A stretch of 64,000 nt of DNA from Gammaproteobacteria bacterium. Lineage in GTDB: Bacteria > Pseudomonadota > Gammaproteobacteria > Acidiferrobacterales > Sulfurifustaceae. The notes beneath the pieces are model-generated. The model worked only from the letters and a program-made list of their open reading frames with translations, did no database searches and had not been told where the DNA came from. The number at the start of each line of letters is the position of its first letter. Position 1 is the stretch's first letter. The stretch is taken from assembly GCA_016199745.1 (NCBI GenBank), contig JACQFZ010000035.1, positions 1 through 64,000 on the forward strand. Reading direction: 5' to 3'. Below, piece by piece: positions 22,838 to 61,537 of the stretch. The translations under genes were made by a program, and so were the position numbers.

Positions 22838-22872
22838 CCTTTGCCCTCTCCTCCTTTCGGGGGAGAGGGGAA
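22838..22872. repeat. REP-like palindrome between jetA and jetB
   Basis: CCCTCTCC (22844-22851), a loop of ten bases, and GGAGAGGG (22862-22869) form a hairpin within CCCTCTCCTCCTTTCGGGGG. It is the same palindrome type as at 7265 and in the NRPS gene. In the operon mRNA it could act as a stability or attenuation element. Confidence 0.65.
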
Positions 22873-22892
22873 GGTGGTGAGAATCTTCATTT

Positions 22893-28768: not shown

Positions 28769-28985
28769 GGCCGGACGGCAACAACAACACGACAGGCTGA
28801 CCGCCAAGACCATCGGCCTGCAACCGCGCCGCCAATGCCAGCGCGCGTTGATCGAGCTCTTTGTAGGTAAGTCGAACGGTCTCCGTTTCACCGTCGGCAA
28901 GGAATATCAATGCAGGACGTTCGGCGTGGCCGATCGTTTGAGAGCGAATAACATGCACCAGAGAACTGCACTCGCTCTTGCTCAT
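28769..28985 (-). pseudogene. Fatty-acyl-AMP ligase (FAAL), N-terminal stub cut by IS66
   Basis: About 72 residues from ATG 28985: MSKSECSSLVHVIRSQTIGH, then PALIFLADGETETVRLTYKE, LDQRALALAARLQADG, and QPVVLLLPSG. FLADGE...LTYxELDxRA and LLLPxG are typical of the start of fatty-acyl-AMP ligases. After Gly the frame runs into the IS66 terminal repeat at 28768 and stops. FAALs activate the fatty acyl starter of PKS/NRPS lipopeptides, so this stub probably belonged to the cluster on its right. It is divergent to that operon. Confidence 0.72.
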
Positions 28986-30924: not shown

Positions 30925-33900
30925 GTGGATAGATCTTATTCGGCAGATGCCCCCGTAGCGATCATAGGTATCGGTTGCCGATTTCCCGGGAAAGTAGATA
31001 GTCCTTCAAGCTTTTGGGATCTGTTAGCACGAGGTGGCGATACCATCATCGACGTGCCGCCGGATCGATGGAATAGCGCTCGCTTCTACGATCCCGATCC
31101 TAAAAAATCAGGGAAGTTGTATTTCCGGGCGGGTGGATTCTTACAACATCGAATCGACCAATTGGATGCCGCGTTTTTCGGAATCTCTCCACGAGAAGCG
31201 GAAGATCTTGACCCACAGCAACGCTTGTTGCTCGAGGTTGCTTGGGAAGCTATCGAGGATGCGGGCTTAGTTCCGGCACATCTCGCGGGTTCCGAGACGG
31301 GCGTCTATATCGGCGCCTTCGCGCTTGATTATCTGCTGACGCAGCTCAATCCGCTCAATCGACACGCGATCGATCAGCATACCGCGGTCGGCATTACGGC
31401 GACCATTTTATCCAACCGCCTCTCCTACCTGTTTGATCTGCGCGGTCCAAGCATGACCATGGACACCGCTTGTTCCTCGTCGCTGGTGGCGCTGCATCAT
31501 GCCTTTCGGGCGGTGGCGTCAGGTGAGTGTGTGCTCGCACTCGCGGGCGGCGTTAACGTCATGCTGCGTCCGGAATTTCCCATCGCCATGTGCAAAGGCG
31601 GTTTCTTGTCGCCGGATGGCCGCTGCAAGAGCTTCGATGCGCGCGCCGATGGCTATGGACGCGGCGAAGGCGCCGGCATCGTCGTTTTGAAACGACTTAG
31701 CGATGCACTGAACGACAACGACGCGATTTACGCGTTGGTGCGCGCCACCGGCGTCAATCAAGATGGTCGCACCGATGGCATCACCGTTCCCAATCGCGTC
31801 GCACAGGAAACATTAATCCGCCGAGTGTGTGCGCAGGCGAAATTGTCTCCGCGCGCCATTCGTTATGTCGAGGCACACGGTACCGGCACCGCGGTCGGCG
31901 ATCCGATCGAAGCGGCGGCGCTCGGTGCCGTCATCGGTAAAGACCGGGCACCGCACGAAGCGTGTCCCGTGGGATCGGTTAAGGCCAACATCGGCCATCT
32001 CGAAGCCGCGGCCGGCATCGCCGGCGTCATTAAGTCGGCGTTGTGCCTGCAACATCGGCAAATTCCGCCGCTCGCGAATTTCAACGCGCCTAATCCGGCG
32101 ATTCCATTCGAGCAGCTTGGACTGCGCTTACCGCTGCAGACAGAGCCCATGCCTGACGGTGAAGGTCCTGCGTGTATTGCCATCAATTCCTTCGGCTATG
32201 GCGGCACCAACGCGCACGCCGTCCTGCAGGAAGCGCCAGCAGTGTCGGCGGTGCGCGCCGCTGAAGAAACACGAGAAACGTTTTATCTGTTACCGCTGTC
32301 GGCACGCGACAAGCCGGCACTCACCGATCTGGCGCGGGCGTATCACGCGCGATTACAGCAACCGGATGCGCCGCGACTTCGCGACCTTTGCTACTCCGCC
32401 GCGCTGCGTCGCGGCCATCATGAGCGTCGGGTCGCGCTGGTGGCGGAGTCTGCGGAAGCCATGTGTCAGCAATTGCAATCGTTCGTCGCGGGAACACCGG
32501 CAGAAGGTATTGCCAGCGGAACGTCTTCCTTCACGGGTCAGAAGCCGGTCTTTGTGTTCACCGGCATGGGTCCGCAATGGTGGGCAATGGGTCGCGAGTT
32601 GTTGCAACACGCGCCCGAATTTCGGCGCGTGGCCGAAGCGTGCGACGAATTGTTTCAACGACTAGCAGGTTGGTCGATTCTCGCTGAATTGACCGTGGAC
32701 GAGAACCGTTCGCGCATGACGCAAACGCAAGTCGCCCAGCCGGCCAACTTCGTCCTTCAGGTTGCGCTGGCGGCGTTGTGGCGTTCATGGGGCGTTGAAC
32801 CTGCCGCTATCATCGGCCACAGCGTGGGTGAAGTGGCGGCAGCGCATGTCGCCGGTATTCTCGATTTAGAAAAAGCCATCCGAGTCGTTTATCACCGCAG
32901 CCGCTTGCAACAACAAGCGGCTGGTTTAGGCACCATGCTGGCGGCAGGTATTTCGCAAGCGCAGGCGGCGCCGCTGTTGCAGCAACATCGGAACGTCTGT
33001 CTCGCCGCCGTCAACGGACCGGAGTCCGTCACCTTGGCCGGCGACCCCGGCGAGTTGCAGCAGATCGCAACGATGTTGAATGGCCAAGGAACCTTCAACC
33101 GCTTGCTGCAAGTCGAAGTGGCCTATCACAGCGCTTACATGGATCCGCTGGTACCGGCGTTGTTCGAATCACTGGGGGATTTGAATCCCAGCTCCCCCAC
33201 CGTTCCGTTCTATTCCACCGTAACCGGCGCGCGCGCGGTATCAGGCGTGGGCGACGCCGCCTATTGGGGCCAAAACATGCGCGAGCCCGTGTACTTCGCG
33301 CGCGCAATGGATAGCCTGATCCACGAGGGTCATCGTGTATTCCTTGAGGTAGGCCCACACCCGGTATTGTCGAATTCTATAAAAGAGTGCCTGGCACAAC
33401 ATGCCACCGATGGCGTGGTATTGGCGTCGCTACGGCGAGAGCAGTCGGAGCGACATACCTTATATATGGCGTTGGCCCAACTTTATACTGCGGGCGGCAT
33501 GGTGGACTGGAGCCGGTTCTACTTGAGCGGCGGCAAGTATGTTCGTCTGCCGACCTACCCCTGGCAGCGCGAAACCTACTGGCGCGAAACGGAAGAGGCT
33601 CGTTTCGATCGCCTCGGCTCCATGGAGCACCCGCTACTAGGATGGCGCTCGGCCGGCCCGGTCCCGTATTGGACCAACCGACTAAATAAAAACCTCCTGC
33701 CCTACCTCGAAGATCATCGCGTCGATGGCTTGGTGATTCTGCCAGGCGCCGCCTATGTCGAAATCGGGCTTGCCGTTCATCGCGTCGCTAGCGGGCACAT
33801 GCAAGCAGCGCTCGAAGATCTTGAGTTTCACAAAGCGCTTATCCTTGAACCACATCAAGAACCCAATCTTTTTGTTACCTACGAAGAATCGACGCAGAAT

Positions 33901-36423: not shown

Positions 36424-36440
36424 GAGGGTTATACATTTCG

Positions 36441-37400
36441 ATGCTGTATAAAAACCCCTGCGAAGTCATTCTCGACGACGTCTTCGTCTCGCTCGAAAAG
36501 CTGGAACAAGATCTTCAGATCTATCTCAAGCTCGAGTGTTTCAATCTAGCGGGGTCGATTAAGCTGAAACCGGCGCTCGCCTTCGTTCAAGATTTGGAAC
36601 GGCGAGGAATACTGACGCCGAACAGTCGCATCATTGAATCGTCGTCCGGCAATCTCGGCGTGGCGTTAGCCATCGTCAGTAAAGTTAACGGCTATCCATT
36701 CACCTGCGTAACGGATCCGAATGCGTCTCCCCACAATTTACGTTTGATCGCCGCTTATAGTGGCGAGGTAATCGTCGTAAAAGAGAGAGATGAAAATGGC
36801 GGGTATCTGAGAACAAGAATACGTCTTATCGAGTCGCTGCTCAGCAAAGATCCTTCCTTGGTTTGGACAAATCAGTATGCCAATCCGGTCAATAAAGACG
36901 CGCACCGAATTTATACCGCGGCCGCGATTCACCGGCAGTTCCAAAATTTAGATTATTTATTCGTTGGGACTGGAAGTTCCGGCACGCTCATGGGCTGTGC
37001 CGAGTACATGAAGCAGCACAGCCCGCATACGCGCGTCATCGGTGTCGATAGCGTCGGATCGGTGACCTTTGGTTTTGCTCCCGCGAAACGACACATCCCC
37101 GGTATCGGTGCCAGTCGTCGTCCCGAGATTTTCGATCCGGCGTTGGTCGATGACGTAGTGATGATCCCGGAAGCAGAGACGGTGGCGATGTGTCGCCGAT
37201 TGCGGGACACCTGTGGAATATTAGCGGGAGGCTCAACCGGGACCGTGGTGGCGGGAGTTATGCGCTACAAATCTCGTTTGCCGCGCGATGCGACCGTCGT
37301 AGCGATATCGTCGGATCTGGGCGAACACTATATCGACACTATTTACGATGATGTGTGGGTTCAAGAAAAGTTTCCGCACGTAGTGGATTTATGCAATTGA
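36441..37400 (+). CDS. sbnA: SbnA-like 2,3-diaminopropionate biosynthesis enzyme
   Basis: 319 residues of the PLP-dependent cysteine synthase fold. PLP lysine in NLAGSIKLKPA (about residue 41), phosphate loop SSSGNLGVA (about 74), GTGSSGT and GGSTGT. SbnA joins O-phospho-L-serine and L-glutamate into N-(1-amino-1-carboxyl-2-ethyl)-glutamate. The assignment to SbnA rather than cysteine synthase rests on the adjacent, overlapping sbnB gene and the siting inside an NRPS operon. The stop TGA overlaps the next ATG (TGATG). Confidence 0.85.
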   Translation: MLYKNPCEVILDDVFVSLEKLEQDLQIYLKLECFNLAGSIKLKPALAFVQDLERRGILTPNSRIIESSSGNLGVALAIVSKVNGYPFTCVTDPNASPHNLRLIAAYSGEVIVVKERDENGGYLRTRIRLIESLLSKDPSLVWTNQYANPVNKDAHRIYTAAAIHRQFQNLDYLFVGTGSSGTLMGCAEYMKQHSPHTRVIGVDSVGSVTFGFAPAKRHIPGIGASRRPEIFDPALVDDVVMIPEAETVAMCRRLRDTCGILAGGSTGTVVAGVMRYKSRLPRDATVVAISSDLGEHYIDTIYDDVWVQEKFPHVVDLCN

Positions 37401-38458
37401 TGCGCGAGCAACGAACAAACCGTGGAGGAACCGATGTTCATGACGAACCTTCCGACATCGGCTTTCACGTCGTCGGCGGTAAAGTGGCTCAAAAAATAAT
37501 TCGCAGCAACAGACGCGAGATCATTTCACTAGTGCGAGACGCGTACATCGCCCACGGCAATGGCGATTCCGTCGATCCACCGAGCAGTTTTCTCCATTTC
37601 CCGGAAAAACCCAATTGCCGGATCATCGCCAAGCCCGCCTACTTAAAGGGCGCCACCAACGTGGCGGGCGTCAAGTGGATATCCAGCTTTCCCGGCAATA
37701 TCGAGCGCGGAATACCGCGCGCCTCCGCCGCGCTGCTGCTGAACGATATCGACACGGGTTATCCATTCGCCTGTCTCGAAGGCTCGATTATCAGCGCGGC
37801 GCGTACCGCGGCATCGGCGGTGCTCGCTGCCCGGCTATTGGGCGGCGGCAAAAAAGTTTCCTGTGCCGGGTTTATCGGTAACGGAATAATCGCTCGTGAA
37901 ATTTTCGATTTTTTTATTGACGATGGCTGGCATTTCGATCGTCTGTGCCTCTATGACTCAGTAGGAAAATATAGCGAGGCGTTCAAGAACTACATCGAGA
38001 AACGCAATGACGGCGTCGTTTCTATTTGCGTCGATCATGACGAACTAATCCAAAACTGCGAATTGATAACGTTTGCCACGACGGCGTTAGAGCCTTATGT
38101 AAAGAATTTGGATTTATTTTCGCATCATCCCCTCGTGCTCAACGTCTCGCTACGCGATTTGAGTCCAGACGTGATCATCGTTTCCAACAATATCCTAGAC
38201 GACGTGGAACATTGTTTAACCGCCAATACGTCTCCTCATCTCGCGGAACAATTGCTGGGTAATCGGTCGTTCGTGACCGGCACCCTCTACGACGTGATGC
38301 GTGACACCTGCAAGTCGGCGAAATCCAAACCGACGATATTTTCGCCGTTTGGGCTCGGCATTCTCGACGTGGCGTTGGGGAAATATGTCTTCGACCGCGC
38401 CGGAAAAAGCGGGTGGATACCGATACCCGATTTCTATCCAGATCTGACACGTTGGTGA
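37400..38458 (+). CDS. sbnB: SbnB-like 2,3-diaminopropionate synthase (ornithine cyclodeaminase family)
   Basis: About 352 residues. Ornithine cyclodeaminase/mu-crystallin family: PAYLKGATNVAGVKWISSFP in the substrate region, then the Rossmann nucleotide loop GFIGNGIIAREIF (about residue 160), and the C-terminal NILDDVEHC and FSPFGLGILDVALGK. SbnB oxidatively splits the SbnA product to L-2,3-diaminopropionate and 2-oxoglutarate using NAD. ATG 37400 is chosen for its TGATG coupling with sbnA; an ATG at 37391 is also in frame. NRPS1 begins 13 bases after its stop, so diaminopropionate is almost certainly a building block of the encoded peptide. Confidence 0.88.
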   Translation: MREQRTNRGGTDVHDEPSDIGFHVVGGKVAQKIIRSNRREIISLVRDAYIAHGNGDSVDPPSSFLHFPEKPNCRIIAKPAYLKGATNVAGVKWISSFPGNIERGIPRASAALLLNDIDTGYPFACLEGSIISAARTAASAVLAARLLGGGKKVSCAGFIGNGIIAREIFDFFIDDGWHFDRLCLYDSVGKYSEAFKNYIEKRNDGVVSICVDHDELIQNCELITFATTALEPYVKNLDLFSHHPLVLNVSLRDLSPDVIIVSNNILDDVEHCLTANTSPHLAEQLLGNRSFVTGTLYDVMRDTCKSAKSKPTIFSPFGLGILDVALGKYVFDRAGKSGWIPIPDFYPDLTRW

Positions 38459-38471
38459 GGGATTAAGAGTC

Positions 38472-41400
38472 ATGCCAACGAACACCATTCCGCCGTCTCT
38501 CGACGCTCTAACCCCTCAGCAACGGCGTGAATTGCTCGCCCGACTTCTGCGCAATAATGCCAATCAGGACCGAGTATGGCCGGTGTCCAGCGCGCAAGAG
38601 GGAATGTGGTTCCAGCGCTATGCCGATCCCGCGAGCTCCGCTTTCCACGTGGCGCTTGCCTTGCATTTGCATTCCGAGTTCGACGTCGCGGCATTGCGCC
38701 GCGCGTGCCAGCAATTCATCGATCGTCATCCGCTGTTGCGCGCCGTTTTCCGGATGGAGGCTGGTCGGTTGGTTCAGAGGATCGCCGCACAGCAGACCAT
38801 CGACTTCACCGTCGTCAACGTTTCAGGCATGGACGACGCGGCACTGCGTCAGCGAGTGGATCATGCCTACCGTCAGCCGTTCGACCTGGAGCGCGGTCCG
38901 CTCGCTCGGATCGCACTATTTCGCCGCGCCGGCGACGATCACGTGCTGCTGTTGACCGTGCATCACATCGTCTACGACGGCTGGTCGATGTGGATCACAT
39001 TGGATGAGCTCGGGCGACTCTATACCGCGGAGGCAACGGCTGTTCCTGCGACGCTGCCATCGTTACCCGGTTCATACGAAGCCTATGTGCAACGCCAGGA
39101 AGCGATGCTTGCGAGCGAGCGTGGCGAGCAGCTGTGGTCGTTCTGGCGCGATGAGTTGACTGACGTGCCAGCGCTGCTGGACTTGCCGCATGATCGGCCG
39201 CCATCCTCGGAAAAATCACGGCGCGGTGCATCGTACAAATTCACGCTGACACCCCAGTTAACGACGCGCATCAAACAACAGGCGCGATCCTGCCAGACGT
39301 CGCTCTTCGTCTGGTTACTCGCGGTTTATCAGATCTTGCTATATCGCTATACCGGGCAAGAGAAATTCTCGGTCAGTTCGGTCACCGCCGGACGAGGCAC
39401 GGCGGAAGATCTCGATATCGTCGGTTACTTCGTCAACCCTATCGTGCTCAAAGCGGATTTGGCCGCCAATCCCCGCTTTGTCGATTTCATCGAGCGCGTA
39501 CGCCAGACCGTGTTGCGCGCCCTCGACCACCCGGATTATCCGTTTGCGTTACTGGTAAACCGTCTACATCCCCGACGAGATCCGAGCTATTTGCCGTTTG
39601 GTCAGGCGTTCTTCCTGCTGCAGCAGGCGCAGCGTACCGGCGCGAGCGCCAGTTTGACGAGCGAGCGCTTTCATTGGGGGAGCCTGGAACTCGAGCACTA
39701 CGATCTGGCACAGCAGGAAAACCAAAGCGAACTGGACTTGGAGATGATCGAGTTTCAGGGCGGACTGCTTGGCACCCTCAAGTACAACGCCGATCGGTTC
39801 GATCGTTCGACCATCACGCGAATGGTGGGGCACTTTGTTAATCTGTGCGAAGCAATCCTACAGAATCCCCAAGCTTGCGTTGCCGATCTACCGTTGCTCA
39901 GCGCGACCGAACGCGCGCAACTTCTGGTTGAATGGAATCGCAGCGATCACGACTTTCCGCTGGATCAGACCTACGCCACTCTGTTTGCCCGCCGAGTCGC
40001 GCAACACCCTGATCGCGCGGCAGCGGTCTGCAATGGGGAATCGTTCACGTACCGCGAGCTCGATCAACGCGCCCATCGAATTGCGCAAGGACTGCGCGAC
40101 GCCGGCGTCGACTCTAATCATTTAGTCGCCCTACTGGGTAAACGCGACTTTGCCTTGATGGGCATGATGATCGGCGTATTCAAAGCCGGTGCGGCGTTTC
40201 TGCCGCTCGACGTCAATCATCCGCCCCAGCGTTTGCGCGAGATACTGCAATCGAGCGGAACCACCACATTGCTGGTATCCGAGTCGGCGAGCGGTTGGCT
40301 TAAGGAAGTCCTGCGCGATCTCAAGACGCCGCCAACCATCCTGATCGCTGAAACATTGTTGATGCAAGCAGCAATCGTCGATTTACCGGTATCAGCAACG
40401 CCGCAGGATCTTGCCTACGTGATCTTCACCTCTGGCTCTACCGGTAAACCCAAGGGGGCCATGATTGAACAGCGCGGCATGGTGAATCACATGCTCGGTA
40501 AAATTCTTACGCTGGAAATTACCGAAGCCGATCGCCTAGCGCAAACGGCCTTTCCCTCGTTCGATATTTTTATCTGGCAGATGCTCACGGCGCCGTTGGC
40601 CGGTGGTGTAACCCATATCCTATCCGATACCGCGGTGCTCGATCCGTTGCGTCTGATCGAAGTGATCGAGCAAGAAAAAATCACGCTACTAGAAACGGTG
40701 CCAAGCCAGCTACGTCACCTCCTCGATCTATGTCCGCAAAATGCATCGCTCTCGTCATTGCGTTGGATGATACCGACCGGTGAGGCATTGCCGCTGACGT
40801 TGACCCAAGACTGGTTCGAGCGCTTCCCCGGTATTCCCCTGATGAATGTCTATGGGCCGGCGGAATGTTCGGACGATGTCGCGTTCCATCCGATAACTAC
40901 TCGACCCGACGATAACAGCACGATTCCCATCGGACGTCCTACGCCGAATAACCAACTTTTTATCCTCGATAAATATCTTCAACCGGTCCCGATCGGCGTA
41001 GCCGGAGAAATTTATGTCGGCGGTGTCGGCGTCGGTTGCGGTTACTTAAATGATCCCGAGAAGACCCGCGAATCATTCGTGCCGAATCCGTTCGCGCCCG
41101 GGAAGCGCTGCTATCGCACCGGCGATCTGGGGCGTTACCGTGCCAATGGCGTGATCGATTTCTTGGGGCGGCGAGATCATCAAGTAAAAATACGCGGCGC
41201 GCGTATCGAGCTCGGCGAAATCGAGGCCGCCCTCGGCGCGCTGCCGGATGTGCACGAGGCTGTTGTCGTTGCGCGGGAAGATCGCCCGGGCGATAAGCAA
41301 TTGGTGGCATACGTGGTAACGAAACTCGATCCTCATGAATTGCGCAATGCCCTCGCCAGTCGGCTGCCTGAGTACATGCTTCCCACCGCTTATGTGGCGC

Positions 41401-44400
41401 TCGACGCGCTACCCGTCACGCCCAACGGTAAGCTGGATCGCCAGGCGTTAGCGGCGCCCGATGCATCGGCACGCGTGACCCGCCCTTACGAATTACCGCA
41501 AGGTCATCTCGAGCGTGCCGTTGCCGCGGTTTGGCAGGAGCTGCTCAATATCGAGACCATCGGCCGCCACGATAACTTCTTCGAACTCGGCGGCCATTCG
41601 TTGTTGGCCGTGCAACTGATTGCACGACTACGTCAATTGCCGGCGTCGGAACAACAAGGGCTGACGATTGACGCGGGCGCCGTGTTTTCTGCGCCCACGG
41701 TGGCTGGGCTGGCGGCGGTCATCGCCGGCGACGCTACCAAGCCGACTTTTCAAGTGCCGCCCAATCGGATTCCCGTCGACTGTACCGCCCTCACTCCCGA
41801 TTTATTACCGCTGGTATCGCTGACACAAGCAGAGATCGACCGGATTGTTTCAGATGTCCCCGAAGGCGTCGCCGACATTCAGGACATCTACCCGCTGTCG
41901 CCGCTGCAGGCAGGATTTCTTTTCCATTACTTGATGGAAACCGAGAGAGACATCTACATGCTGCGCTCGGTGCTGACCTTCGACAACCGGAACCGATTAG
42001 AAAGTTTTCTGGCGGCGTGGCAAACCGTGCTTGATCGTCATGACATCCTGCGCAGCTCGATTCACTGGCGCGGCCTGTCTCGACCGGTGCAAGTGGTGCA
42101 TCGCCAAGCGCAGCTGTCGGTGAAAGAGCTAACGGCAACCGCATCGGACGATGCACTGACGCTGTTACAGCACCACACCGATCACCACAAGCGTCTCGAC
42201 TTACAACGCGCGCCGCTGCTGCAGGCGTATACGGTGACAGATCCGAAGAACGGGCAGTGCTACGTAGCGTTGCTCTATTCGCACTTGGTATGCGACCAAG
42301 TGACGTTGGGCGTCGTTATTGACGAGACGCAGATGCTGCTTGCCGGAAAGTCCGATCGGCTGCCGACACCGCTACCCTATCGAAATTTTGTTGCCCAAAC
42401 TCTCGCGCTTCCGACAACCGAACAGGAAGCGTATTTCCGGCAACAACTCGGTGATATCGATGCACCAACTGCCCCCTTTGGTCTACTCAACGTACCGGGA
42501 GATAGTGCTCATATAAAAGAAACTACGGTTGCGTTGCCGGAAACGCTGTCACAGCGCTTGCGCGATAGCGCCCGACGACACCGTGTCACGCCGGCGGTGT
42601 TATTTCATTTGGCCTGGGCTCAGGTCGTTGCCGCTTGCAGTGGCCAGGATGACGTCGTCTTCGGCACCGTGCTACTAGGACGTTCCCACGGTATGGAAGG
42701 TAACGATCGGATACTCGGCGTAGTGCTTAATACGCTGCCAATTCGATTCTCGCTGGCGGCCAAATACAGCGTCAGTGAAGCGGTTCAGCAAATGCGCCAA
42801 CGTCTAGGCGAGCTACTGGCGCACGAGCATGCGCCGCTAGCGCTTGCGCAACGCTGCAGTCGAGTGGCACCGCCGCTGCCGCTGTTTACCACGCTGTTGA
42901 ACTATCGGCATAGCGACCCTTCCGCGGCCGCTATGTCGGCTTGGGAAGGCGTGCGCTTGCTCGCCAGCGAGGAACGTACGCACTATCCATTTACCATCGC
43001 CGTCGATGATTTCGCCGCCGGATTCTCGTTGACGGTTCAATGCCAAGCGATTGCACCAGCGCGCATCGCCGGTTATTTGCACACCGCTATCGAAGGACTG
43101 GTGGACGCATTGGAGCATGCGCCGCAGCAACTCCTCGATACTCTCAGCATCTTGCCGTTGAGCGAGCGTGAGCAACTGCTGATCCGATTTAACGAGACCG
43201 CGGTAAATTACCCGCAGGGTCAATTGATCCATCAGTTATTCGAGGCCCAAGTCGAGCGGACACCATTAGCCACCGCTGTGGTGTTCGAGGGGGAGCGCCT
43301 TAGTTATGGCGAGCTCAATCGTTGCGCCAATCAAGTGGCGCATGCACTCTTGTCCTTCGGTATTCGTTCTGACGACCGCGTCGCACTCTATGTCGAACGC
43401 GGTTTCGACATGATGATCGGTCTGCTCGGTATCCTCAAAGCCGGCGCCGCCTATGTGCCGCTCGATCCGAGTTACCCCGAGGCGCGATTGGCATTCATGC
43501 TGGCGGATAGCGCACCGACGATAGTGCTGACGCAATCCGCGTTGTGTAACCGCTTGCCGAAAGTCACTGTGCCGGTGGTAGCGTTGGATGCAGCCGATAG
43601 ATTCCTGCAGCAGCCGGACACCAATCCGGATGTGAAGTCCGGTCTTACCGCATCACCTCTCGCCTATGTCATCTACACCTCGGGTTCCACGGGACAACCC
43701 AAGGGAGTGATGGTCGACCACGCATCCGTCGTAAACGTTCTACGTCACTTCTCGGAGACCCTCGATATAACGCAACAGGACGTGTTGTTGGCAGTGACGA
43801 CCTTGTCGTTCGATATCGCCGGTCTCGAGTGGTACCTGCCGCTAATCAATGGCGGGCAAGTCGTCCTTGTTGACCGACGTCATACCGCTGATGCGGAGTT
43901 CTTGATACAGGCGATTGAGCAGTTCGCTATCACCATCATGCAAGCGACCCCGGCGACGTGGCGACTGTTGCTGGCGGAGCGTTCCCCTTTCCTCTCTTCC
44001 TCGCTAAGAAGCCCCCTCTCCCTTGTTTCCTCCCCCGGTTGCTCCAGCGCATCCTGCGCTCGCGACATTCGCGCGTCCATGCGCAGCACAAGGGGGGAGG
44101 GAGACCCTGCGGTTGTTGCTGAGGTGATGACGAATGGTTGGCAAGCGTTACAACTCACGGCGCTTTGTGGCGGAGAAGCGTTACCGACGGAACTAGCCAG
44201 ACGACTGCGCCCACGGGTGAAGGCGCTGTGGAATTTGTATGGGCCGACGGAGACGACGATTTGGTCGACGGGGCTACAGATACTCGCTAGCGGTGTCGCT
44301 ACACCCATCGAGCCGATTGGTCGCCCTATCGCCAACACGCGCATCTATATATTAGATGCACATAAACCGGTGCCGATGGGAGCAACCGGTGAAATCTATA

Positions 44401-46652: not shown

Positions 46653-49600
46653 CCTTCCCGAACAACTCATCCACCAGTTGTTCGAAGCGCAAGCGGCAAC
46701 GCGACCCGACGCGACGGCGCTGACATTCGAAGATCGAACGCTTTCTTACAATGAACTCAATCGCCGCGCCAATCGCGTGGCCCACGCACTCTTGGCGCTT
46801 GGTGTTCGCCCGGATGACCGAATCGCCATTTGCGTCGAGCGTGGCTTCGATATGATCATCGGATTGCTCGGCGTCCTGAAAGCCGGCGCCGCGTATGTGC
46901 CACTCGATCCCGCGTATCCTCGCGAGCGTCTGGCATATTTGTTGGCCGACAGTCAGCCGTGCGCGCTGCTGACGCAAACGGCGTTGCGCCAACAACTGCC
47001 GGCGGAGCAGGTCCCCGTGGTGGTATTGGATGATCGCGATAGCGCGACCGCGTTGGCATCCCTGCCGACGCATAATCCCGATCCGGCCAGTCTCGGCGTA
47101 ACGCCTCGACACCTGGCGTATGTGATCTATACCTCGGGCTCGACCGGCATGCCGAAGGGGGTGATGAATCACCACGGCGGGCTAGTCAATCTAGCGCAAG
47201 CGCAGGTCTCGTTGTTCAACGTGACTCCCGAGAGTCGAGTGTTGCAGTTCGCGTCTTTTAGCTTTGACGCCAGCGTTTGGGAAATCGTCATGGCCTTGAG
47301 CAACGGCGCTTGCTTGTCTCTTGCATCACGGGACGCGTTGCAGCCGGGCGAGCCGTTATTGACCCTGCTAAAGCGCGCGCACATTACTCACCTGACCTTG
47401 CCGCCGTCCGTGTTGACTACCCTCGCCGAAGATACGGATCTCGCACCGATGACGCTGATTGTCGCCGGTGAATCCTGCGCGCCCGAATTGGCGCGGCGTT
47501 GGGCAAATCGACATCGCTTGTTCAATGCCTACGGTCCGACCGAAACCACGGTATGCGCCACAATCCACCCTTGTCGCGCCGATCATGTTGGCGACCGGGT
47601 ACCGATTGGACGCCCCATCGCCAACCTGTCGGCCTATGTGTTGGACCCCCGTCGGCAACCAGTCCCCATAGGTGTCGCTGGTGAAATCTATATCGGTGGC
47701 ATCGGTGTTGCGCGTGGCTATCTCAACCGTCCCGAACTAGCGGCCGTGCGCTTTGTGCCCGATCCGTTTAGCACGCAAGCGGGCGCCAAACTGTATCGCA
47801 CCGGTGACCTCGGTCGGTATCGAAAAGACGGCACGATCGAGTTTCTCGGACGCAATGATTTTCAGATCAAGTTACGTGGCTTTCGCATCGAGCCCGGCGA
47901 AATTGAGGCGCAGTTACTCAAAGCGACCGGCGTGCGCGAAGCGGTGGTGGTGGCGCATGAGGACAAGCGCCTGGTTGCATATGTGGCGGCGCAGGATGGC
48001 GCCGAGTTGTCGACAGCGGCGCTGCGCGCGCACTTGCTCCCGCGATTGCCGGAGCACATGGTCCCAAACGCCTTCGTAATTCTTGAACGCCTACCGTTGA
48101 CACCCAACGGTAAGATCGACCGCAAGGCATTACCGGCGCCGGATGCATCGGCGTTAGTTACGCGCCTCTATGAAGCGCCGCAAGGGAAAATCGAACGCGC
48201 GATCGCCGAGATCTGGCAAGATCTGCTAGACGTATCCTCCGTCGGCCGTCAGGATCATTTCTTCGAGCTAGGTGGCCATTCATTGTTAGCCGTTACGCTA
48301 ATCGAACGGTTGCGGGAACAGGGCTGGTGCATCGATGTTCGTACCGTTTTTGATGCGCCGACCTTGGCCGGCTTAGCAGCGGCCATGACAAGTGCGCCGG
48401 CCATCCCTCGTGTGTTAGCGCCGCCGAATCCTATCTCCGCTGACTGCACCCACATCACCCCTGCTCTGCTACCGCTGGTATCACTGACGCAGACGGAGAT
48501 TGACGCCATCGTCGCCAACGTATCCGGCGGCGTCAGCAACATCCAAGATATTTATCCGCTGACGCCACTGCAGGAAGGTTTGTTGTTCCATCATCTGCTG
48601 GAGACCGACGCGGATGACGTCTATCTGTCGCGTGCGGTGCTGGCGTTTGCCAATCGCTCCCGGCTGGACGATTTTCTAGCGGCGCTACAGATCATCATCG
48701 ATCGTCACGATATTCTGCGCAGCTCCGTTCACTGGGACGGACTGTATCGACCCGTACAAGTCGTGCATCGTCGCGCCCGACTGCTCATCGAGGCATTGCC
48801 ACCGGTGGATTCCGGTCAAGTTTTGGCGCAATTGCTTGCGCTTACCAATCCGCGTGGTCGCGATTTCAACCTACAGCGCGCTCCTCTACTAAGTGCATAT
48901 CTTGCAGCTGACCCGCTTTCCGAATCGTGCTATTTGGCGCTTCTGTTTCATCATCTGGTCGTCGATCACATTACCCTGGAGATCATGATCGGTGAGACTC
49001 AGAAGTTGCTCGCCGGGCAAGCCGATTCGCTGGCAACACCGTTCCCCTACCGCCATTTCGTGGCGCAGGCGTTGGCTGTGTCTGTCTCAGGGCATGAGAC
49101 ATTCTTTCGCAAACAGCTGAGTGATGTGGATGCGCCAACCGCGCCTTTCGGCATCTTGGTGAAATCAAGTGACGCTGGGTTCGAGATCGATCCTGTCACC
49201 GTTCCCTTGAGTGAAACCCTGGCACAACGCGTCCGACGCGTTGCCCGTCAGTCGGGCGTATCGCCGGCGGTGCTGTTCCATGCGGCTTGGGCTCAAGTCG
49301 TCGCGCGTTGCAGCGGTCGCGACGACGTCGTGTTCGGCACCGTGCTGTCGGGACGGCTGCAGGGCGCTCAGGGCGCGGACCCGCTGGTAGGAATCCTGCT
49401 GAACACCTTGCCTATCAGACTGTTGTTGGCAGGGAGAAGTGTTCAGCAGATAGTGCAAGAAACGCATCGTCGTTTAAGCGAGTTACTAGAACACGAGCTG
49501 GCGCCGTTGCCGCTGGCGCAACGTTGCAGCGGTGTCGCGCCGCCGTTGCCGCTGTTCACCACCTTGCTTAATTACCGACATAGCTCCGCCACCGGCACTG

Positions 49601-52600
49601 CCACCGCGTGGGACGGCATACAGCCCATTCGCATCGACGAACGCACCCACTACCCGTTCACTATTTCCGTGGATGACTTCGGGCAAGGGTTTGCGTTGAC
49701 GGTGCAATGCGAAGTGATCGATCCATCGCGCATTGCCGGTTACTTGCAGACTGCGATGGAAGGACTGATCGAAGCGCTGGAACATACGCCGCAACGACCG
49801 ATCGGCACTATTAACATCTTGTCGCCGAGCGAGCGCGAGCAATTGCTGGTCGGTTTCAACAATACGGCCGTTGACTATCCAAGGGATCGATTGATCCAGC
49901 AATTGTTCGAGGTGCAAGTGGAGCGGTCGCCGACCGCGATGGCGGCGATTTGTGATGGACACGAACTCACCTACCACGAGCTGAATCGACGCGCCAATCA
50001 ACTGGCACACCATTTCATCGCACAAGGCATCCGTCCTGATGATCGCGTCGCGATCTGTGTCGAGCGTGGGCTCGACATGGTGGTGGGGCTCCTCGGTATT
50101 CTTAAAGCGGGGGCTGCGTATGTGCCGCTAGATCCGAGTTATCCGATAGAGCGATTGCAGTTCATGCTGGAGGATAGCGCACCGGTTGGGTTGTTGACGC
50201 AGGCATCGCTAAAAGATCGTTTGCCTCGGCACACGCTCCCAGTGGTGGCAATAGATACGGATACCACTCTCGCCCAACAATCTCACGACAACCCGGACCC
50301 GACGGTGTTGGGGTTGACGGATCAACACTTAGCTTACGTAATCTATACCTCGGGCTCGACGGGCGCTCCGAAAGGCGTTGCCATCGAGCACCGAAACACC
50401 GTCAATTTGATCCGTTGGGCACGGTCGGCGTTTACCGAGAAAGAACTCGCCCACACGGTATTTTCAACATCGCTCAACTTCGATCTGGCGGTGTACGAAT
50501 GCTTCGTACCGCTCTCGATCGGCGCTGTCATCGATATCCGACACGACCTGCTGGCGTTGGCCAGCGCACCTTCTCGTGTCATTACGCTGATCAATACCGT
50601 GCCATCGGCAATCCAGGCCTTGCTCGACCACCAAGGTATCCCCGACACAATCCATACGATCAATCTCGCTGGCGAACCGCTCAAACAAACGCTGGTTGAC
50701 CGACTCTTCGGCGAGACCCGCGTCAAAACTGTGTGCAACCTCTATGGCCCCTCCGAGACCACGACCTATTCGACGTGGGTCGCCATGGATCAGGAGCAGG
50801 GATTTGCCGCGCACATCGGTCGGCCGATCGCCAATACGCGCATCTATATATTAGATGCGCATCGGCAACCGGTTCCGATGGGAGTGGTCGGCGAGCTTTA
50901 TATCGGTGGCGCAGGCGTCGCACGAGGTTATTTGAACCGTCCCGATCTCACCGCCGAACGCTTCCTACCGGACCCATTCGTTGCCGACCCGGAGGCGAGA
51001 ATCTACAAAACGGGGGACCTCGCGCGTCATCGGCCGAATGGCGATATCGAGTTCCTCGGGCGCAATGACTTTCAGGTCAAAATCCGCGGATTTCGTATCG
51101 AGTTAGGCGAAATCGAAACACAGCTACTCGCCTACCCTGGTATACGCGACGCTATCGTCATCGCCCGTGAAGACAGTCCCGGCGATCGGCGCCTGGTCGC
51201 TTACCTGACCACGCATGATCATCCAGCGGTATCGATTGCGGCGTTGCGTGAGCACCTAGCCAGTCGATTGCCCATATACATGGTTCCCAACGCCTTTGTC
51301 GTGCTTCCGCGTTTGCCGCTCACTCCCAACGGCAAAATCGATCGCCCGGCGTTGCCGGCCCCGGATGTCTCCGCTGGCATGAGACGCGCCTACGAGCCCC
51401 CGCAAGGTGATTTTGAACTAGCGATTGCCACGGTCTGGCAAGACCTGCTCGGCGTGTCGAGCGTTGGCCGCCACGACAATTTTTTCGAGCTCGGTGGGCA
51501 TTCGCTGTTAGCCATGCAACTGATCGTTCGACTGCGCCAGTTGCCGCTGCTGCAGCAATCGCGATTGCGCGTCGATTTAAAAAGCGTCTTCGCTTCACCC
51601 ACGGTAGTCGAATTAGCCGCTACCATCGCCGGCACGGGAGCGACGCCGACGCTTCAAATTCCTGCCAATCGAATTCCGGGTGACTGCACCTGCATCACTC
51701 CCGATCTGTTGCCACTCGTAACGCTGACTCAAACCGAGATCGACCGGCTCATTGCGATCATTCCGGAAGGACTCGCCAACATCCAAGATATCTACCCCCT
51801 ATCGCCAATGCAGGAGGGGCTGCTGTTCCATCATCTGCTGGAAAGCGAAGGCGATCCCTATCTGCTGCGCTCGGTGGTGGCATTCGCCAGCCAGACCAAG
51901 CTCGATGCGTTTCTGGCCGCTTTACAAGCCGTCATCGATCGTCACGACATCTTGCGTAGCTCGATCCATTGGCGCGATTTGTCTCGGCCGGTGCAGGTCG
52001 TACATCGTCGAAGCCAGCTGTCGCGGAATCAATTAGCCGTTGCAACGACGAATGATGAATTGGCGCAGTTACTTCAGCACACCAATCCGCGTCATCGACG
52101 CCTCGACTTACAACGCGCTCCACTCTTAGAAGCGTATACCGCGGCCGACCCGCAGAGTGGCGAGTACTACTTGGCCTTACTCTATTCTCACTTGGTCATC
52201 GACCACGTGACCCTGGAAGCCATCATCGCCGAAATACACACGCTGCTCGCCGGCCGATCCGACGTGTTGCCCGCGCCCCTGCCCTATCGCCATTTTGTTG
52301 CCCAAGCGCTGGCGGTTCCGGCCAGTGAGCACGCCGCCTACTTCCGGCAACAACTCGGCGACGTGGACGAACCCACGGCTCCCTTCGGGATTCTCAACGT
52401 GCGGCGAAATGGCACCCAGATAAAGGAAGCGACGGTTGCACTGAGTGAATCGTTGTCGCGACGATTGCGCGACAGCGCCCGTCAAGAAGGCGTTACGCCC
52501 GGCGTATTGTTTCATGTCGCCTGGGCCCAAGTTCTCGCCGCTTGTAGCGGCCGTCAGGATGTCGTGTTCGGCACTCTGTTGTTAGGCCGCTCACGGGACA

Positions 52601-55600
52601 TCGAAGGCGTCGATCGAACGTTAGGCGTATTCATCAATACGCTGCCGATCCGCCTGTCGCTGTCGGGACTGACGGTTCGTAAAGCGATTGCAGTGGCCTA
52701 TCAACGCATCAGTGAACTGCTGGCACACGAACATGCGTCGCTGGCGCTGGTCCAGCGCTACAGCCAAGTGATGCCGCCGCTGCCGCTGTTTACCACGCTG
52801 CTGAATTATCGACATAGTCACCCACAGCCGGCGGCGACCATGGACGGTATGCGGATTATCGCCGGCGAAGAACGTACGAATTATCCCTTCACCATCTCGG
52901 TGGATGAATTCCCAACAGGATTTTCTGTAACGGTCCAATGCGAAGGCGTAGAGCCGGCGCGCATCGTCGGCTACTTGCACACCGTCATCGACGGTCTGGT
53001 GGAAGCGCTGGAAAACACATCGCAACGACCTCTCGACACCCTAAGCATTTTGCCGGCGACAGAGCGCGCGCAGTTGCTGACAGCCTTCAACGACACGGTG
53101 AAGGGTTATCCACGGCATTCATTGATCCATCAGTTAGTCGAGACACAGGTTCAGAAGACACCGACAGCTACGGCCGTTGTCTGCAACAAGCAATCGCTTA
53201 CCTATCGCGAGCTGAATCAGCGCGCCAATCAACTGGCGCATCATCTGATCGAGCACGGCATTCGTCCTGACGATCGCGTGGCGGTATGTATCGAGCGCGG
53301 TGTCGAAATGGTCATCGGACTCCTCGGTATTCTCAAAGCCGGCGCCGCGTATGTGCCGATCGATCCCTGTTATCCGATAGAGCGATTGGCGTTCATGTTG
53401 GCAGACAGCGCTCCGTCGATGTTGTTAACCCAAGCTACGCGGCGTCAGCGTCTGCCCGTCGGAAAATGGCCTACGTTGATGTTGGACGATCCGGTGTTTG
53501 CATTGCAACCCACGTACGACCCCGATCCCGTTGCGCTCGGTCTAACCGCCAGTCACCTGGCTTACGTCATCTATACCTCCGGCTCTACCGGGAAACCGAA
53601 GGGAGTCGCTATGGAACATCAGGCATTGATGAACCTGCTGCACTGGCAGCACCGATCCAATGCGTACTCATGTCCGCGAACCGCGCAATTCGCCGCGTTG
53701 GGATTTGATGTGGCATTCCAGGAAATATTTTCGACGATCGGTTTCGGCGGTGAGTTGGTGCTCATTCCTGATGACGATATCCGCCGCGACTCCTCCGCGT
53801 TAGCCGCATTCCTCGGGGCACAACAGATTGAACGGCTGTTTATTCCATTTTCCGCACTGAAGCCGTTAGCGCACGCTATCGTTGAACAACAGCTGGCGCT
53901 GCCCACCCTGCAAGCGGTGATTACGGCCGGCGAGCAGTTGCGTATCGAACCGATGATCCAACAATGCTTCCGGCAGCTGCGTAGCTGCCGTCTGTATAAC
54001 CACTACGGTCCGACCGAGACGCATGTCGCGACATCGTTCTTGCTGGTGGAGCAAGTCAATGAATGGACGGCGCTGCCGCCGATCGGCAGACCGATCGACA
54101 ATACCCAGCTGTACGTATTGGACCGTGAACGGCAACCGGTACCGATCGGTGTTGCCGGCGAAATTTATATCGGCGGTGCCGGCGTTGCTCGCGGTTATTT
54201 GAATCGGCCGGCACTGACGGCCGAACGTTTCGTGTCTGATCCATATAATCGGCACGCCGATGCGCGACTGTATCGTACGGGCGATTTGGGCCGTTGGCGC
54301 GCCGATGGCACGCTGGAATATCTTGGACGCAACGACTTTCAGGTCAAGATACGTGGCTTTCGTATCGAGCCGGGTGAGATCGAAGCGCAGTTGCTCGCCT
54401 GTGCCGACGTACGCGAGGCGGTGGTCGTTGCGCGTGCAGAGGGTGCAGACCATCGGCGGCTGATCGCGTATGTCATCGCCCAACCGGGTAAGGAAATACC
54501 CGCCGCCACGTTGCGCGAACAACTGAACGAGCACTTACCCAACTACATGGTGCCAAGCGCTTTCGTCGTGCTCGAACATTGGCCACTCACCCCCAACGGC
54601 AAGCTCGATCGCGCCGCCCTACCGGCACCGGACACGTCAGCGCTCGCGAGCCAGCCTTACGAACCACCACAAGGCGACATCGAGTGTGCTATCGCATCGG
54701 TTTGGCAAACATTGCTGCAGGTGCCTCAGGTCGGCCGCTACGATGATTTCTTTGCGCTCGGTGGACATTCGCTGTTGGCCGTGCAGTTGGTCGCACGGTT
54801 GCGCCCATTGCTCGATCGTGAGATTCCACTGCGCGATGTGTTCGCACACCCGACGCTGATCGCACTGGCGCGCGCGATCGGCAACACCGGCGCTGCCAAG
54901 TTGCCCCCGCTGCCGCACGCGGATCGGACGCGATCGTTGCCGTTGTCATTTGCGCAGCAACGGTTGTGGGAATTAATACGGCAGCAACCGAAGGCCAGCA
55001 CCGCCTATCATCGGGTCGTCTTGTTGCGATTGCACGGTCCGGTCAATGTGTCGGCGTTGCAGATGACGTTGGATTGCTTGGCAGCGCGACATGAATCGTT
55101 GCGTACCCGATTCGTGGAGGTCGATGGTCAGCTGGTGCAGTGTATCGACGACGTAAACAACGGTTTGCGACTGCAGGTCGAAGACTGGCACGAGGTACCC
55201 GCCAGCAAACGTACAGACGTTATCGCAGACGTGGGGCACCAAGCGCTGCGCGAGCCGTTCGATTTCGCTAAGGGTCCGCTGATGCGTGCCCGCTTGTTGC
55301 GGCTCGCAGATCAGGAGCACGTTCTGCTGCTGGCATATCACTTCATTATCTGCGACGGCTGGTCGAGCAAAGTTCTACTGCGCGAAAGCGCTCCGTTGTA
55401 TGCGGCGTTCGTACAAGGACAGTCAAATCCGCTGCCACCGCCGCCATGGCAATTCGCCGATTTTGCATCGTGGCAACGGCACTGGGCGGCGAGCACCGAC
55501 GCGCAACCGCATTTGGATTTCTGGATCCGCCATCTGACGGGAGCGCCGGCGCGGCTGGCCTTGCCGACCGATCGGCCGTGGCCCACCGTCCCCTCATTCG

Positions 55601-56268
55601 CGGGAGCGAGCTTACCGTTCGCACTATCACCGAAATTGACCGAACAGTTGCGGCACCTGGCGCAGGATCAAGGAGCCACCTTATATATGATTTTGATCGC
55701 CGGCTGGGCCGCATTGATGGGGCATTTAAGCGACCAAACCGATGTCGTGATCGGTTCTGCCACCGCCAATCGACCGCGGCAGGAATGGGAAGAGTTGGTG
55801 GGGTTGTGCGTCAATACACTGGCGTTGCGGGTGCAGCTCGACGACGGTCTCACCGGCATCGATCTGTTGGCACAAGTGAAGGCGGCGGTGTTGGCGGCGT
55901 ACGTCCATCAGCATCTACCGTTCGAGCGTATCGTTCAGGCACTGGCGCGGCCGGTCGGCTCCACCCTACAACCGCTGTTCCAAACGATGCTGACGCTCAA
56001 TAACGCACCCGTGGATGGTGTTCAAGCGTTTTCTGGGCTTACTGTCGACGCCATCGTACCAGCGCAATTCACGTCTCGCTGTGAACTCAATTTAGGACTC
56101 AACGATGATGGCGCGATGGTTTCAGGTTCGTTGAGTTACTCCACCGAACTATTCGAGGCGGCCACGATGGAAAATATCGCGGATCAGTTTCAGCGGCTGC
56201 TGGAGAGCCTAGCCACCGCCCCTTACCAACGCATCGTCGATTGGGTAACCGGCTCGATCAACGAATGA
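46633..56268 (+). CDS. Nonribosomal peptide synthetase 2 (A-T-C-A-T-C-A-T-C, no thioesterase)
   Basis: 3211 residues. It starts directly with A3, without its C domain: A3 YTSGSTGMPKG (about 167), T3 (about 548). C4 is dual type: HHLLETDAD (about 653) and HHLVVDH (about 773). A4 (about 1239), T4 (about 1620). C5 is dual type: HHLLESEGD, the full HH(I/L)xxxxGD signature (about 1733), and SHLVIDH (about 1853). A5 (about 2315), T5 (about 2709). C6 is terminal, LCL-like, with HFIICDG (about 2902) where HHxxxDG is expected. Pocket residues: A3 D-A-W-T-I-A-A-V-C-K (Phe); A4 D-L-Y-N-N-A-L-T-Y-K (Ala); A5 D-V-Q-F-I-A-H-V-A-K (Pro-like). No thioesterase or reductase follows. The ATG overlaps the end of NRPS1 by 20 bases. 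Confidence 0.93.
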   Translation: MAMKRLDLPEQLIHQLFEAQAATRPDATALTFEDRTLSYNELNRRANRVAHALLALGVRPDDRIAICVERGFDMIIGLLGVLKAGAAYVPLDPAYPRERLAYLLADSQPCALLTQTALRQQLPAEQVPVVVLDDRDSATALASLPTHNPDPASLGVTPRHLAYVIYTSGSTGMPKGVMNHHGGLVNLAQAQVSLFNVTPESRVLQFASFSFDASVWEIVMALSNGACLSLASRDALQPGEPLLTLLKRAHITHLTLPPSVLTTLAEDTDLAPMTLIVAGESCAPELARRWANRHRLFNAYGPTETTVCATIHPCRADHVGDRVPIGRPIANLSAYVLDPRRQPVPIGVAGEIYIGGIGVARGYLNRPELAAVRFVPDPFSTQAGAKLYRTGDLGRYRKDGTIEFLGRNDFQIKLRGFRIEPGEIEAQLLKATGVREAVVVAHEDKRLVAYVAAQDGAELSTAALRAHLLPRLPEHMVPNAFVILERLPLTPNGKIDRKALPAPDASALVTRLYEAPQGKIERAIAEIWQDLLDVSSVGRQDHFFELGGHSLLAVTLIERLREQGWCIDVRTVFDAPTLAGLAAAMTSAPAIPRVLAPPNPISADCTHITPALLPLVSLTQTEIDAIVANVSGGVSNIQDIYPLTPLQEGLLFHHLLETDADDVYLSRAVLAFANRSRLDDFLAALQIIIDRHDILRSSVHWDGLYRPVQVVHRRARLLIEALPPVDSGQVLAQLLALTNPRGRDFNLQRAPLLSAYLAADPLSESCYLALLFHHLVVDHITLEIMIGETQKLLAGQADSLATPFPYRHFVAQALAVSVSGHETFFRKQLSDVDAPTAPFGILVKSSDAGFEIDPVTVPLSETLAQRVRRVARQSGVSPAVLFHAAWAQVVARCSGRDDVVFGTVLSGRLQGAQGADPLVGILLNTLPIRLLLAGRSVQQIVQETHRRLSELLEHELAPLPLAQRCSGVAPPLPLFTTLLNYRHSSATGTATAWDGIQPIRIDERTHYPFTISVDDFGQGFALTVQCEVIDPSRIAGYLQTAMEGLIEALEHTPQRPIGTINILSPSEREQLLVGFNNTAVDYPRDRLIQQLFEVQVERSPTAMAAICDGHELTYHELNRRANQLAHHFIAQGIRPDDRVAICVERGLDMVVGLLGILKAGAAYVPLDPSYPIERLQFMLEDSAPVGLLTQASLKDRLPRHTLPVVAIDTDTTLAQQSHDNPDPTVLGLTDQHLAYVIYTSGSTGAPKGVAIEHRNTVNLIRWARSAFTEKELAHTVFSTSLNFDLAVYECFVPLSIGAVIDIRHDLLALASAPSRVITLINTVPSAIQALLDHQGIPDTIHTINLAGEPLKQTLVDRLFGETRVKTVCNLYGPSETTTYSTWVAMDQEQGFAAHIGRPIANTRIYILDAHRQPVPMGVVGELYIGGAGVARGYLNRPDLTAERFLPDPFVADPEARIYKTGDLARHRPNGDIEFLGRNDFQVKIRGFRIELGEIETQLLAYPGIRDAIVIAREDSPGDRRLVAYLTTHDHPAVSIAALREHLASRLPIYMVPNAFVVLPRLPLTPNGKIDRPALPAPDVSAGMRRAYEPPQGDFELAIATVWQDLLGVSSVGRHDNFFELGGHSLLAMQLIVRLRQLPLLQQSRLRVDLKSVFASPTVVELAATIAGTGATPTLQIPANRIPGDCTCITPDLLPLVTLTQTEIDRLIAIIPEGLANIQDIYPLSPMQEGLLFHHLLESEGDPYLLRSVVAFASQTKLDAFLAALQAVIDRHDILRSSIHWRDLSRPVQVVHRRSQLSRNQLAVATTNDELAQLLQHTNPRHRRLDLQRAPLLEAYTAADPQSGEYYLALLYSHLVIDHVTLEAIIAEIHTLLAGRSDVLPAPLPYRHFVAQALAVPASEHAAYFRQQLGDVDEPTAPFGILNVRRNGTQIKEATVALSESLSRRLRDSARQEGVTPGVLFHVAWAQVLAACSGRQDVVFGTLLLGRSRDIEGVDRTLGVFINTLPIRLSLSGLTVRKAIAVAYQRISELLAHEHASLALVQRYSQVMPPLPLFTTLLNYRHSHPQPAATMDGMRIIAGEERTNYPFTISVDEFPTGFSVTVQCEGVEPARIVGYLHTVIDGLVEALENTSQRPLDTLSILPATERAQLLTAFNDTVKGYPRHSLIHQLVETQVQKTPTATAVVCNKQSLTYRELNQRANQLAHHLIEHGIRPDDRVAVCIERGVEMVIGLLGILKAGAAYVPIDPCYPIERLAFMLADSAPSMLLTQATRRQRLPVGKWPTLMLDDPVFALQPTYDPDPVALGLTASHLAYVIYTSGSTGKPKGVAMEHQALMNLLHWQHRSNAYSCPRTAQFAALGFDVAFQEIFSTIGFGGELVLIPDDDIRRDSSALAAFLGAQQIERLFIPFSALKPLAHAIVEQQLALPTLQAVITAGEQLRIEPMIQQCFRQLRSCRLYNHYGPTETHVATSFLLVEQVNEWTALPPIGRPIDNTQLYVLDRERQPVPIGVAGEIYIGGAGVARGYLNRPALTAERFVSDPYNRHADARLYRTGDLGRWRADGTLEYLGRNDFQVKIRGFRIEPGEIEAQLLACADVREAVVVARAEGADHRRLIAYVIAQPGKEIPAATLREQLNEHLPNYMVPSAFVVLEHWPLTPNGKLDRAALPAPDTSALASQPYEPPQGDIECAIASVWQTLLQVPQVGRYDDFFALGGHSLLAVQLVARLRPLLDREIPLRDVFAHPTLIALARAIGNTGAAKLPPLPHADRTRSLPLSFAQQRLWELIRQQPKASTAYHRVVLLRLHGPVNVSALQMTLDCLAARHESLRTRFVEVDGQLVQCIDDVNNGLRLQVEDWHEVPASKRTDVIADVGHQALREPFDFAKGPLMRARLLRLADQEHVLLLAYHFIICDGWSSKVLLRESAPLYAAFVQGQSNPLPPPPWQFADFASWQRHWAASTDAQPHLDFWIRHLTGAPARLALPTDRPWPTVPSFAGASLPFALSPKLTEQLRHLAQDQGATLYMILIAGWAALMGHLSDQTDVVIGSATANRPRQEWEELVGLCVNTLALRVQLDDGLTGIDLLAQVKAAVLAAYVHQHLPFERIVQALARPVGSTLQPLFQTMLTLNNAPVDGVQAFSGLTVDAIVPAQFTSRCELNLGLNDDGAMVSGSLSYSTELFEAATMENIADQFQRLLESLATAPYQRIVDWVTGSINE

Positions 56269-57726: not shown

Positions 57727-57788
57727 GGTATCTCCTGTTGGATTATAAAAATAATTGAGAATGAAATTTCATTTGCCGGGGGCGCCGC

Positions 57789-58781: not shown

Positions 58782-58806
58782 CGGGTCTCTCCATCGAAAT
58801 CGAGTT

Positions 58807-60228: not shown

Positions 60229-60264
60229 AAATTTGTCTCCTTGCCTTCGCTACGCCGAAGAAAG

Positions 60265-61077: not shown

Positions 61078-61099
61078 AAAATTCCCTTTCAAAAATTGT

Positions 61100-61495
61100 T
61101 TAGTTAATATTGGAAGCAGAGGATGCGACGGCAAAATCCTTATCAATCGGGCCTCCGGATACACCGATGTATCCTACGATCTGGTCTCCCGCTTTGATTG
61201 GCATTCCTCCGGCGAAACCCATCAGTCCTCCACTTGAAGACTCCATTCCGTAGGCTCCAACTTCAGGGCGCAGGAATTCCCATACTTTTTCCGAGTTCAT
61301 CTGAAAAAGCATCGATGTTTTGGCTTTCTTAATGGCGATGTCGATAGAGCCAAGAAATGCGTTGTCCATTCTAAGAAACGCTTTTAAGTGGCCGGCCGTA
61401 TCAAGAACGGCGATGTTCATCGGAATACCGATTTCAAGCGCCTTAGCTTTTGCTCTGCTGAGCAACGATTCTGATTGCGATAATGTAAGGTCCAT
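61100..61495 (-). CDS. GlcG/HbpS-family (DUF336) protein
   Basis: About 131 residues. Conserved PMNIAVLDTAGHLKAFLRMD and GGMPIKAGDQIVGYIGVSGG. This is the haem-degrading/haem-binding HbpS-GlcG family; small cytosolic or exported proteins, here without a signal peptide. The start at 61495 is chosen for GGAGGA five to six bases upstream (an ATG at 61507 overlaps it). It lies between ADH and SDR genes on the same strand, suggesting a small operon; its biochemical role there is unknown. Confidence 0.82.
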   Translation of the reverse strand: MDLTLSQSESLLSRAKAKALEIGIPMNIAVLDTAGHLKAFLRMDNAFLGSIDIAIKKAKTSMLFQMNSEKVWEFLRPEVGAYGMESSSGGLMGFAGGMPIKAGDQIVGYIGVSGGPIDKDFAVASSASNIN

Positions 61496-61537
61496 AATTT
61501 CCTCCAATGCAATGTCGTTGCTGGTGTTTCTAGTTTC

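Follow-up and report, generated by a model that had tools for sequence, protein, structure and literature searches.

A compact operon that joins a polyketide synthase (PKS), genes for L-2,3-diaminopropionate (Dap) and two non-ribosomal peptide synthetases (NRPSs) raises the question of which product it encodes, how the chain is started and released, and whether the pathway still runs. We address this question for a locus within 64,000 nucleotides of DNA (the whole stretch is termed the window below) from a gammaproteobacterial genome of 72 contigs and 4.26 Mb that is rated 98% complete. Genome-wide presences and absences given here are the outcome of family searches. Small and easily read, this orphan assembly line permits a precise product prediction, and its enzyme classes are well known.

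Organization of the operon

Positions 30925-56268 are filled by five consecutive forward-strand open reading frames, all at the stated coordinates. They encode a type I PKS of one module (30925..36423, recognized by Pfam and motifs), two enzymes of L-2,3-diaminopropionate synthesis, namely the PLP enzyme SbnA (36441..37400, TIGR03945) and the dehydrogenase SbnB (37355..38458, TIGR03944), and two NRPSs assigned from Pfam, binding pockets and motifs. NRPS1 (38472..46652) has the predicted order C1-A1(Dap/Dab)-T1-C2(dual type)-A2(Gly)-T2-C3, and NRPS2 (46633..56268) the predicted order A3(Phe)-T3-C4(dual type)-A4(Ala)-T4-C5(dual type)-A5(Pro)-T5-C6(terminal). Pfam identifies five complete A-T pairs across the two proteins. 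One PKS module, then sbnA/sbnB, then two NRPSs with five colinear A domains is the order described in the earlier note, and it is recovered by the Pfam and TIGR models. The description of the operon as compact also holds, as every junction is an overlap or a gap of 13-17 nt (17 nt between PKS and sbnA, an overlap of sbnA and sbnB, 13 nt between sbnB and NRPS1, and an overlap of 20 nt between NRPS1 and NRPS2). The start of sbnB is probably the ATG at 37400, inside a TGATG overlap with the sbnA stop. Chance is no concern for these frames, because they are long, multidomain and far over the family cut-offs.

A single frameshifted gene was considered for NRPS1 and NRPS2 and rejected. The ends of both proteins are normal and lie at a C|A linker, and their genes overlap by those 20 nt, so that, judging from the sequence, a real gene split is likelier than an old frameshift. 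No exporter or PPTase was found on the operon strand, no MbtH was identified in the genome, and there are no Rfam matches or tRNAs within the window.

Other genes in the window include a complete Wadjet type I defence operon (JetA-JetB-JetC-JetD, 17644-24329, minus strand), after which a Pif1-like helicase was identified by Pfam (24447-26087). Downstream of NRPS2, on the minus strand (56755-62569), are genes for an AidB-like lactonase with a metallo-beta-lactamase fold (below cut-off), an alpha/beta hydrolase, an MFS transporter, an SDR and an alcohol dehydrogenase. Two adjacent ketosynthase genes of FabF-like length lie on the same contig just past the window (72123-74167).

The PKS module and the source of the starter

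All domains of the PKS lie on the plus strand and were identified by Pfam, and a pattern check found the catalytic motifs of each intact. They are a KS (30949-32232; TACSSS), an AT (32548-33495; GHSVGE), a DH (33628-34449; HRVDGLVILPG, of the HxxxGxxxxP form), a KR (35185-35721; LDD, or B-type, with the Tyr/Asn catalytic motif) and an ACP (36034-36228; LGLDSL). Under general PKS rules, a B-type KR acting with a DH leaves a trans-2-enoyl chain. Given the LDD and HxxxGxxxxP motifs, this product is expected here, and the proposal that KS-AT-DH-KR extends the acyl group to an enoyl chain stands as a prediction. The AT probably uses malonyl, as suggested by GHSVGE; its specificity motif, VAYHS, has no textbook form.

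How the starter reaches the KS is less clear. Neither a fatty acyl-AMP ligase (FAAL) nor another starter-loading domain was identified in the operon by Pfam or among the genome's AMP-binding matches. An in-cluster FAAL or CAL with an ACP is common for hybrid PKS-NRPS lipopeptide lines, and a starter supplied in trans is possible; this operon lacks the in-cluster arrangement. Loading of the acyl group by a FAAL, as earlier proposed, is therefore unsupported, since all that the window contains of a FAAL is a truncated 5' remnant of ~72 N-terminal codons on the minus strand (28768..28985). Reading from 28985, the remnant opens with MSKSECSSLVHVIRSQTIGHAERPALIFLADGETE. Over 48 aa it shares 73% identity with the FAAL of a FAAL-ACP-PKS that the same genome encodes on C43, and its best PDB matches are 7r7e (labelled polyketide synthase) and 3kxw, a Legionella FAAL. 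The remnant breaks at about 28768, where GTAAGCGGTAACTACCCGAC starts; this resembles an IS66 terminal repeat. An IS66-family transposase that is N-terminally short abuts the remnant (27718..28740, plus strand, Pfam), and a second transposase (DUF4372/DDE_Tnp_1; 29366..30496, plus strand, Pfam) lies between the remnant and the PKS. The rest of the FAAL gene is absent from the genome's AMP-binding matches. From its position, the FAAL may once have served the operon.

Two intact FAALs are encoded elsewhere in the genome, one fused (C43) and one of 610 aa (C22), so starter loading in trans is possible for the operon PKS. The clusters that carry them were also noted. That on C22 (L067 14236-20000 and L068 1-13020) includes an acyl ligase-ACP, a PKS with KS, AT and DH, another PKS whose last domain is a sulfotransferase, a C-A-T-TE NRPS and an ABC transporter. 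That on C43 (L069 202-18989) encodes a FAAL-ACP-KS-AT-DH-KR PKS, C-A-T-TE and C-A-T-reductase NRPSs with cysteine-like A codes, TubC docking domains and a GMC oxidoreductase.

Diaminopropionate supply and amino acid selection

SbnA and SbnB are adjacent, and both score above the curated equivalog cut-offs (404 bits against 350 for TIGR03945 and 379 against 327 for TIGR03944), which upholds the claim that the operon supplies its own Dap precursor.

We aligned the A domains to GrsA-PheA, whose own ten pocket positions came out as DAWTIAAICK, as expected. The pockets are DIWEITVDDK (A1; 39984..41456, plus strand), DILQLGLIWK (A2; 43239..44966, plus strand), DAWTIAAVCK (A3), DLYNNALTYK (A4) and DVQFIAHVAK (A5), codes that we take to indicate Dab/Dap, Gly, Phe, Ala and Pro, respectively. 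Val236 and Gln239 are typical of Pro A domains, and Asp-Leu-Tyr/Trp-Asn has been traced to Ala A domains (PMC12283262). All five pockets agree with the basic, Gly, Phe, Ala and Pro readings made earlier, and together with the module order they support the colinear Dap-Gly-Phe-Ala-Pro logic.

The first position merits closer attention. For the A1 pocket stretch, the closest alignment is to the final A domain of PvdL, which is Dab-specific. In solved PvdL chains, the pocket of that domain reads DIWELTADDK in the alignment and is identical to the A1 pocket at 8/10 positions (literature searches returned no match to this exact signature). One A domain of an SbnAB-bearing NRPS locus of Janthinobacterium lividum has the pocket DIWQVTVDDK, with Thr301 and Val322 in common with A1. 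Published Dap and Dab signatures share 80% identity (PMC12283262), and the A1 pocket by itself fits both. Dap is nevertheless the better reading of the predicted substrate, because SbnAB is encoded in the same operon.

A2 contains two in-frame inserts, detected by alignment and inverted repeats. One, at 44711..44812, is a REP/BIME-like double palindrome that is translated as ...PHPDPLPEGEGE... within the domain. The palindrome, CCCTCTCCC-N-GGGAGAGGG, occurs at 146 sites in the genome compared with 1 for a reversed control, and one pair lies inside A2. The other, at 43985..44115, is probably a second, degenerate REP-type insert; it forms an extra loop with a CCCTCTCCCT tract and is missing from A1 and A3-A5 in the A-domain alignment. 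Both fall in low-confidence stretches of an AlphaFold model of A2, which was built from five sequences and, with a pLDDT of 60, is too weak to judge. This raises the question of whether an adenylation domain tolerates a REP element within it.

Condensation domains, stereochemistry and chain release

Between the carrier motif and the first motif of the following C domain lie 98 aa for C2, 92 aa for C4 and 98 aa for C5, whereas C3 and C6 each have a spacer of 57 aa. Spacers of ~92-105 aa are found in dual C/E domains and of ~60-70 aa in LCL domains (PMC10212144). An extended first motif of the HHxxxxxGD type accompanies the long spacers, in textbook form in C5 (HHLLESEGDPY), as HHLLETDAD in C4 and in degenerate form in C2 (HYLMETERD). 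Thus, C2, C4 and C5 look like dual condensation/epimerization domains, in which case residues 1, 3 and 4 should be D, and D-Dap, D-Phe and D-Ala are predicted. The earlier note had missed the dual C/E domains, as well as the missing TE, the terminal C domain and the REP insert in the Gly A domain.

C6 (54934..56238, plus strand; motif YHFIICDG) is the last domain of NRPS2, which ends ~9 residues beyond it. No TE was identified in the operon by Pfam, and the two clear thioesterase matches in the genome are both parts of the NRPSs on C22 and C43. A stand-alone partner module for C6 (an A-first NRPS subunit) was not found among the AMP-binding matches of this 98%-complete genome. The best PDB matches of C6 are the elongation C domains of Txo1 and Txo2. 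We rejected a fungal CT-type cyclase, as the 57-aa spacer is too short compared with the ~86 aa of fungal cyclizing CT domains (PMC10212144). The terminal C domain of glidonin synthesis amidates directly with putrescine, and termini consisting of C only have been noted for other putrescine-capped peptides (PMC10587159). Given this precedent and the lack of both a TE and an A-first subunit, we favour release of the chain by C6 onto an amine; a macrolactam through the Dap side chain would be the second choice.

Proposed pathway and alternatives

We consider the chance somewhat better than even that the operon encodes a cis-AT PKS-NRPS lipopeptide line whose product is 2-enoyl-D-Dap-Gly-D-Phe-D-Ala-Pro, released by C6 with an amine or by cyclization. 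A fatty acyl starter would reach the KS in trans, and the PKS module would add one malonyl unit, with the B-type KR and the DH leaving a trans-2-enoyl chain. C1 would hand this chain to the Dap that SbnA/SbnB produce locally, and modules 1-5 would then build enoyl-D-Dap-Gly-D-Phe-D-Ala-L-Pro, with C2, C4 and C5 epimerizing the upstream residue. With no TE available, C6 may condense the chain with a free amine or with the Dap side-chain amine and so release it. The calculated [M+H]+ values for the linear acid, the dehydrated (cyclic) form and the putrescine amide would be 657.397, 639.387 and 727.487 with a C12 acyl group and 685.428, 667.418 and 755.518 with a C14 acyl group. Against this pathway are the destroyed FAAL, the lack of starter loading in the operon, the two A2 inserts, the C6 spacer, the missing exporter, PPTase and MbtH, and the Dap/Dab ambiguity of the pocket. 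It is possible, and we suggest it tentatively, that the operon encodes a new lipopentapeptide scaffold in which an elongation-type terminal C domain performs amine capping or forms a Dap lactam and the starter is rescued in trans by the FAAL of another cluster.

Loss of function competes seriously with this reading, though we think it rather unlikely that the cluster is decaying or silent and yields no mature product. IS elements would have removed the FAAL, as suggested by its reduction to ~72 codons at an IS66-like end with two transposases upstream, and perhaps also a terminal A-T-TE gene, consistent with the lack of a TE or C6 partner module among the genome's AMP-binding and thioesterase matches; the REP insert inside A2 also fits. 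However, 25 kb of frames remain open with every core motif checked intact, the REP inserts hold frame and sit at points where the aligned A domains differ in length, and FAALs exist in trans. The pathway may still run. C6 might also await a lost A-T-TE subunit, given its elongation-length spacer and the break between NRPS1 and NRPS2, which likewise falls directly after a C domain. A related but improbable alternative is that C6 elongates towards a sixth module, the gene for which lies elsewhere or is absent from the assembly, giving a hexapeptide or longer product. The resemblance of C6 to the Txo1/Txo2 domains, its LCL-length spacer and the division of NRPS1 from NRPS2 at this very C|A boundary would fit such a module, but the AMP-binding matches of this nearly complete genome include no A-first NRPS subunit, and the other NRPS A domains found carry their own C domains. 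Least probable, in our view, is that the substrate of A1 is Dab or some other basic residue while the Dap from SbnAB serves something else. The eight pocket positions shared with PvdL point that way, but SbnA/SbnB lie between the PKS and NRPS1, and Val322 is common to another SbnAB-associated NRPS. The Dap-containing lipopentapeptide remains our preferred reading.

Comparison with known systems

We searched for clusters of the same order around sbnB, using a pattern scan of GTDB r220, 96 relatives found by the family model, genomes of the order (57), class (369) and phylum (398), and PLSDB. Pattern scans miss divergent homologues; flanks of 10-20 kb were inspected, and two PLSDB matches were inspected in context. 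No same-order cluster was found in ~930 genomes or in the sbnB-based scans of GTDB r220 and PLSDB, and the SbnB of the operon occurs in only one of the 57 genomes of the order, the source genome itself. SbnB homologues from Pseudomonas, Corallococcus, Paraburkholderia acidicola, Glaciibacter and others were rejected as same-order relatives, as the available flanks show no PKS-NRPS context that matches. These sbnB-anchored searches do not contradict the novelty of the gene combination.

On the Janthinobacterium lividum plasmid NZ_CP049829.1, SbnA/SbnB likewise lie beside a lipopeptide-type NRPS, together with FAAL, ACP and two large NRPSs. Its Dap-like code is near-identical to that of A1, and its Ala code, DLYNNALTYK, is also that of A4. 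However, the locus has twelve A domains rather than five, an intact FAAL and ACP, a different peptide and, by domain models of its NRPS proteins, no PKS module. The cluster on C43 of the same genome shares the PKS domain order, but the PKS itself is 35% identical, and its cysteine-like A codes and release domains are unlike those of the operon. The pyoverdine synthetase PvdL resembles the operon in the pocket of its last A domain; it has a different product and a fused acyl ligase.

The operon is an orphan cluster of a known kind, as PKS-fed, Dap-containing lipopeptide NRPSs have a precedent in the lipodiscamide model ('Entotheonella'; PMC12858407). There, too, a CAL/PKS-fed NRPS makes a lipopeptide in which 2,3-diaminopropionate is predicted, whereas that pathway has E and TE domains and other modules. 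In glidonin/rhabdopeptide-type amine-capped peptides (PMC10587159), the NRPS ends in a C domain without a competent TE, as it does here. Glidonin synthesis keeps a C-A*-T-TE, whereas the operon ends in C6, for which amine acceptance is putative. The operon offers a test of chain release by an NRPS that ends in an elongation-type C domain.
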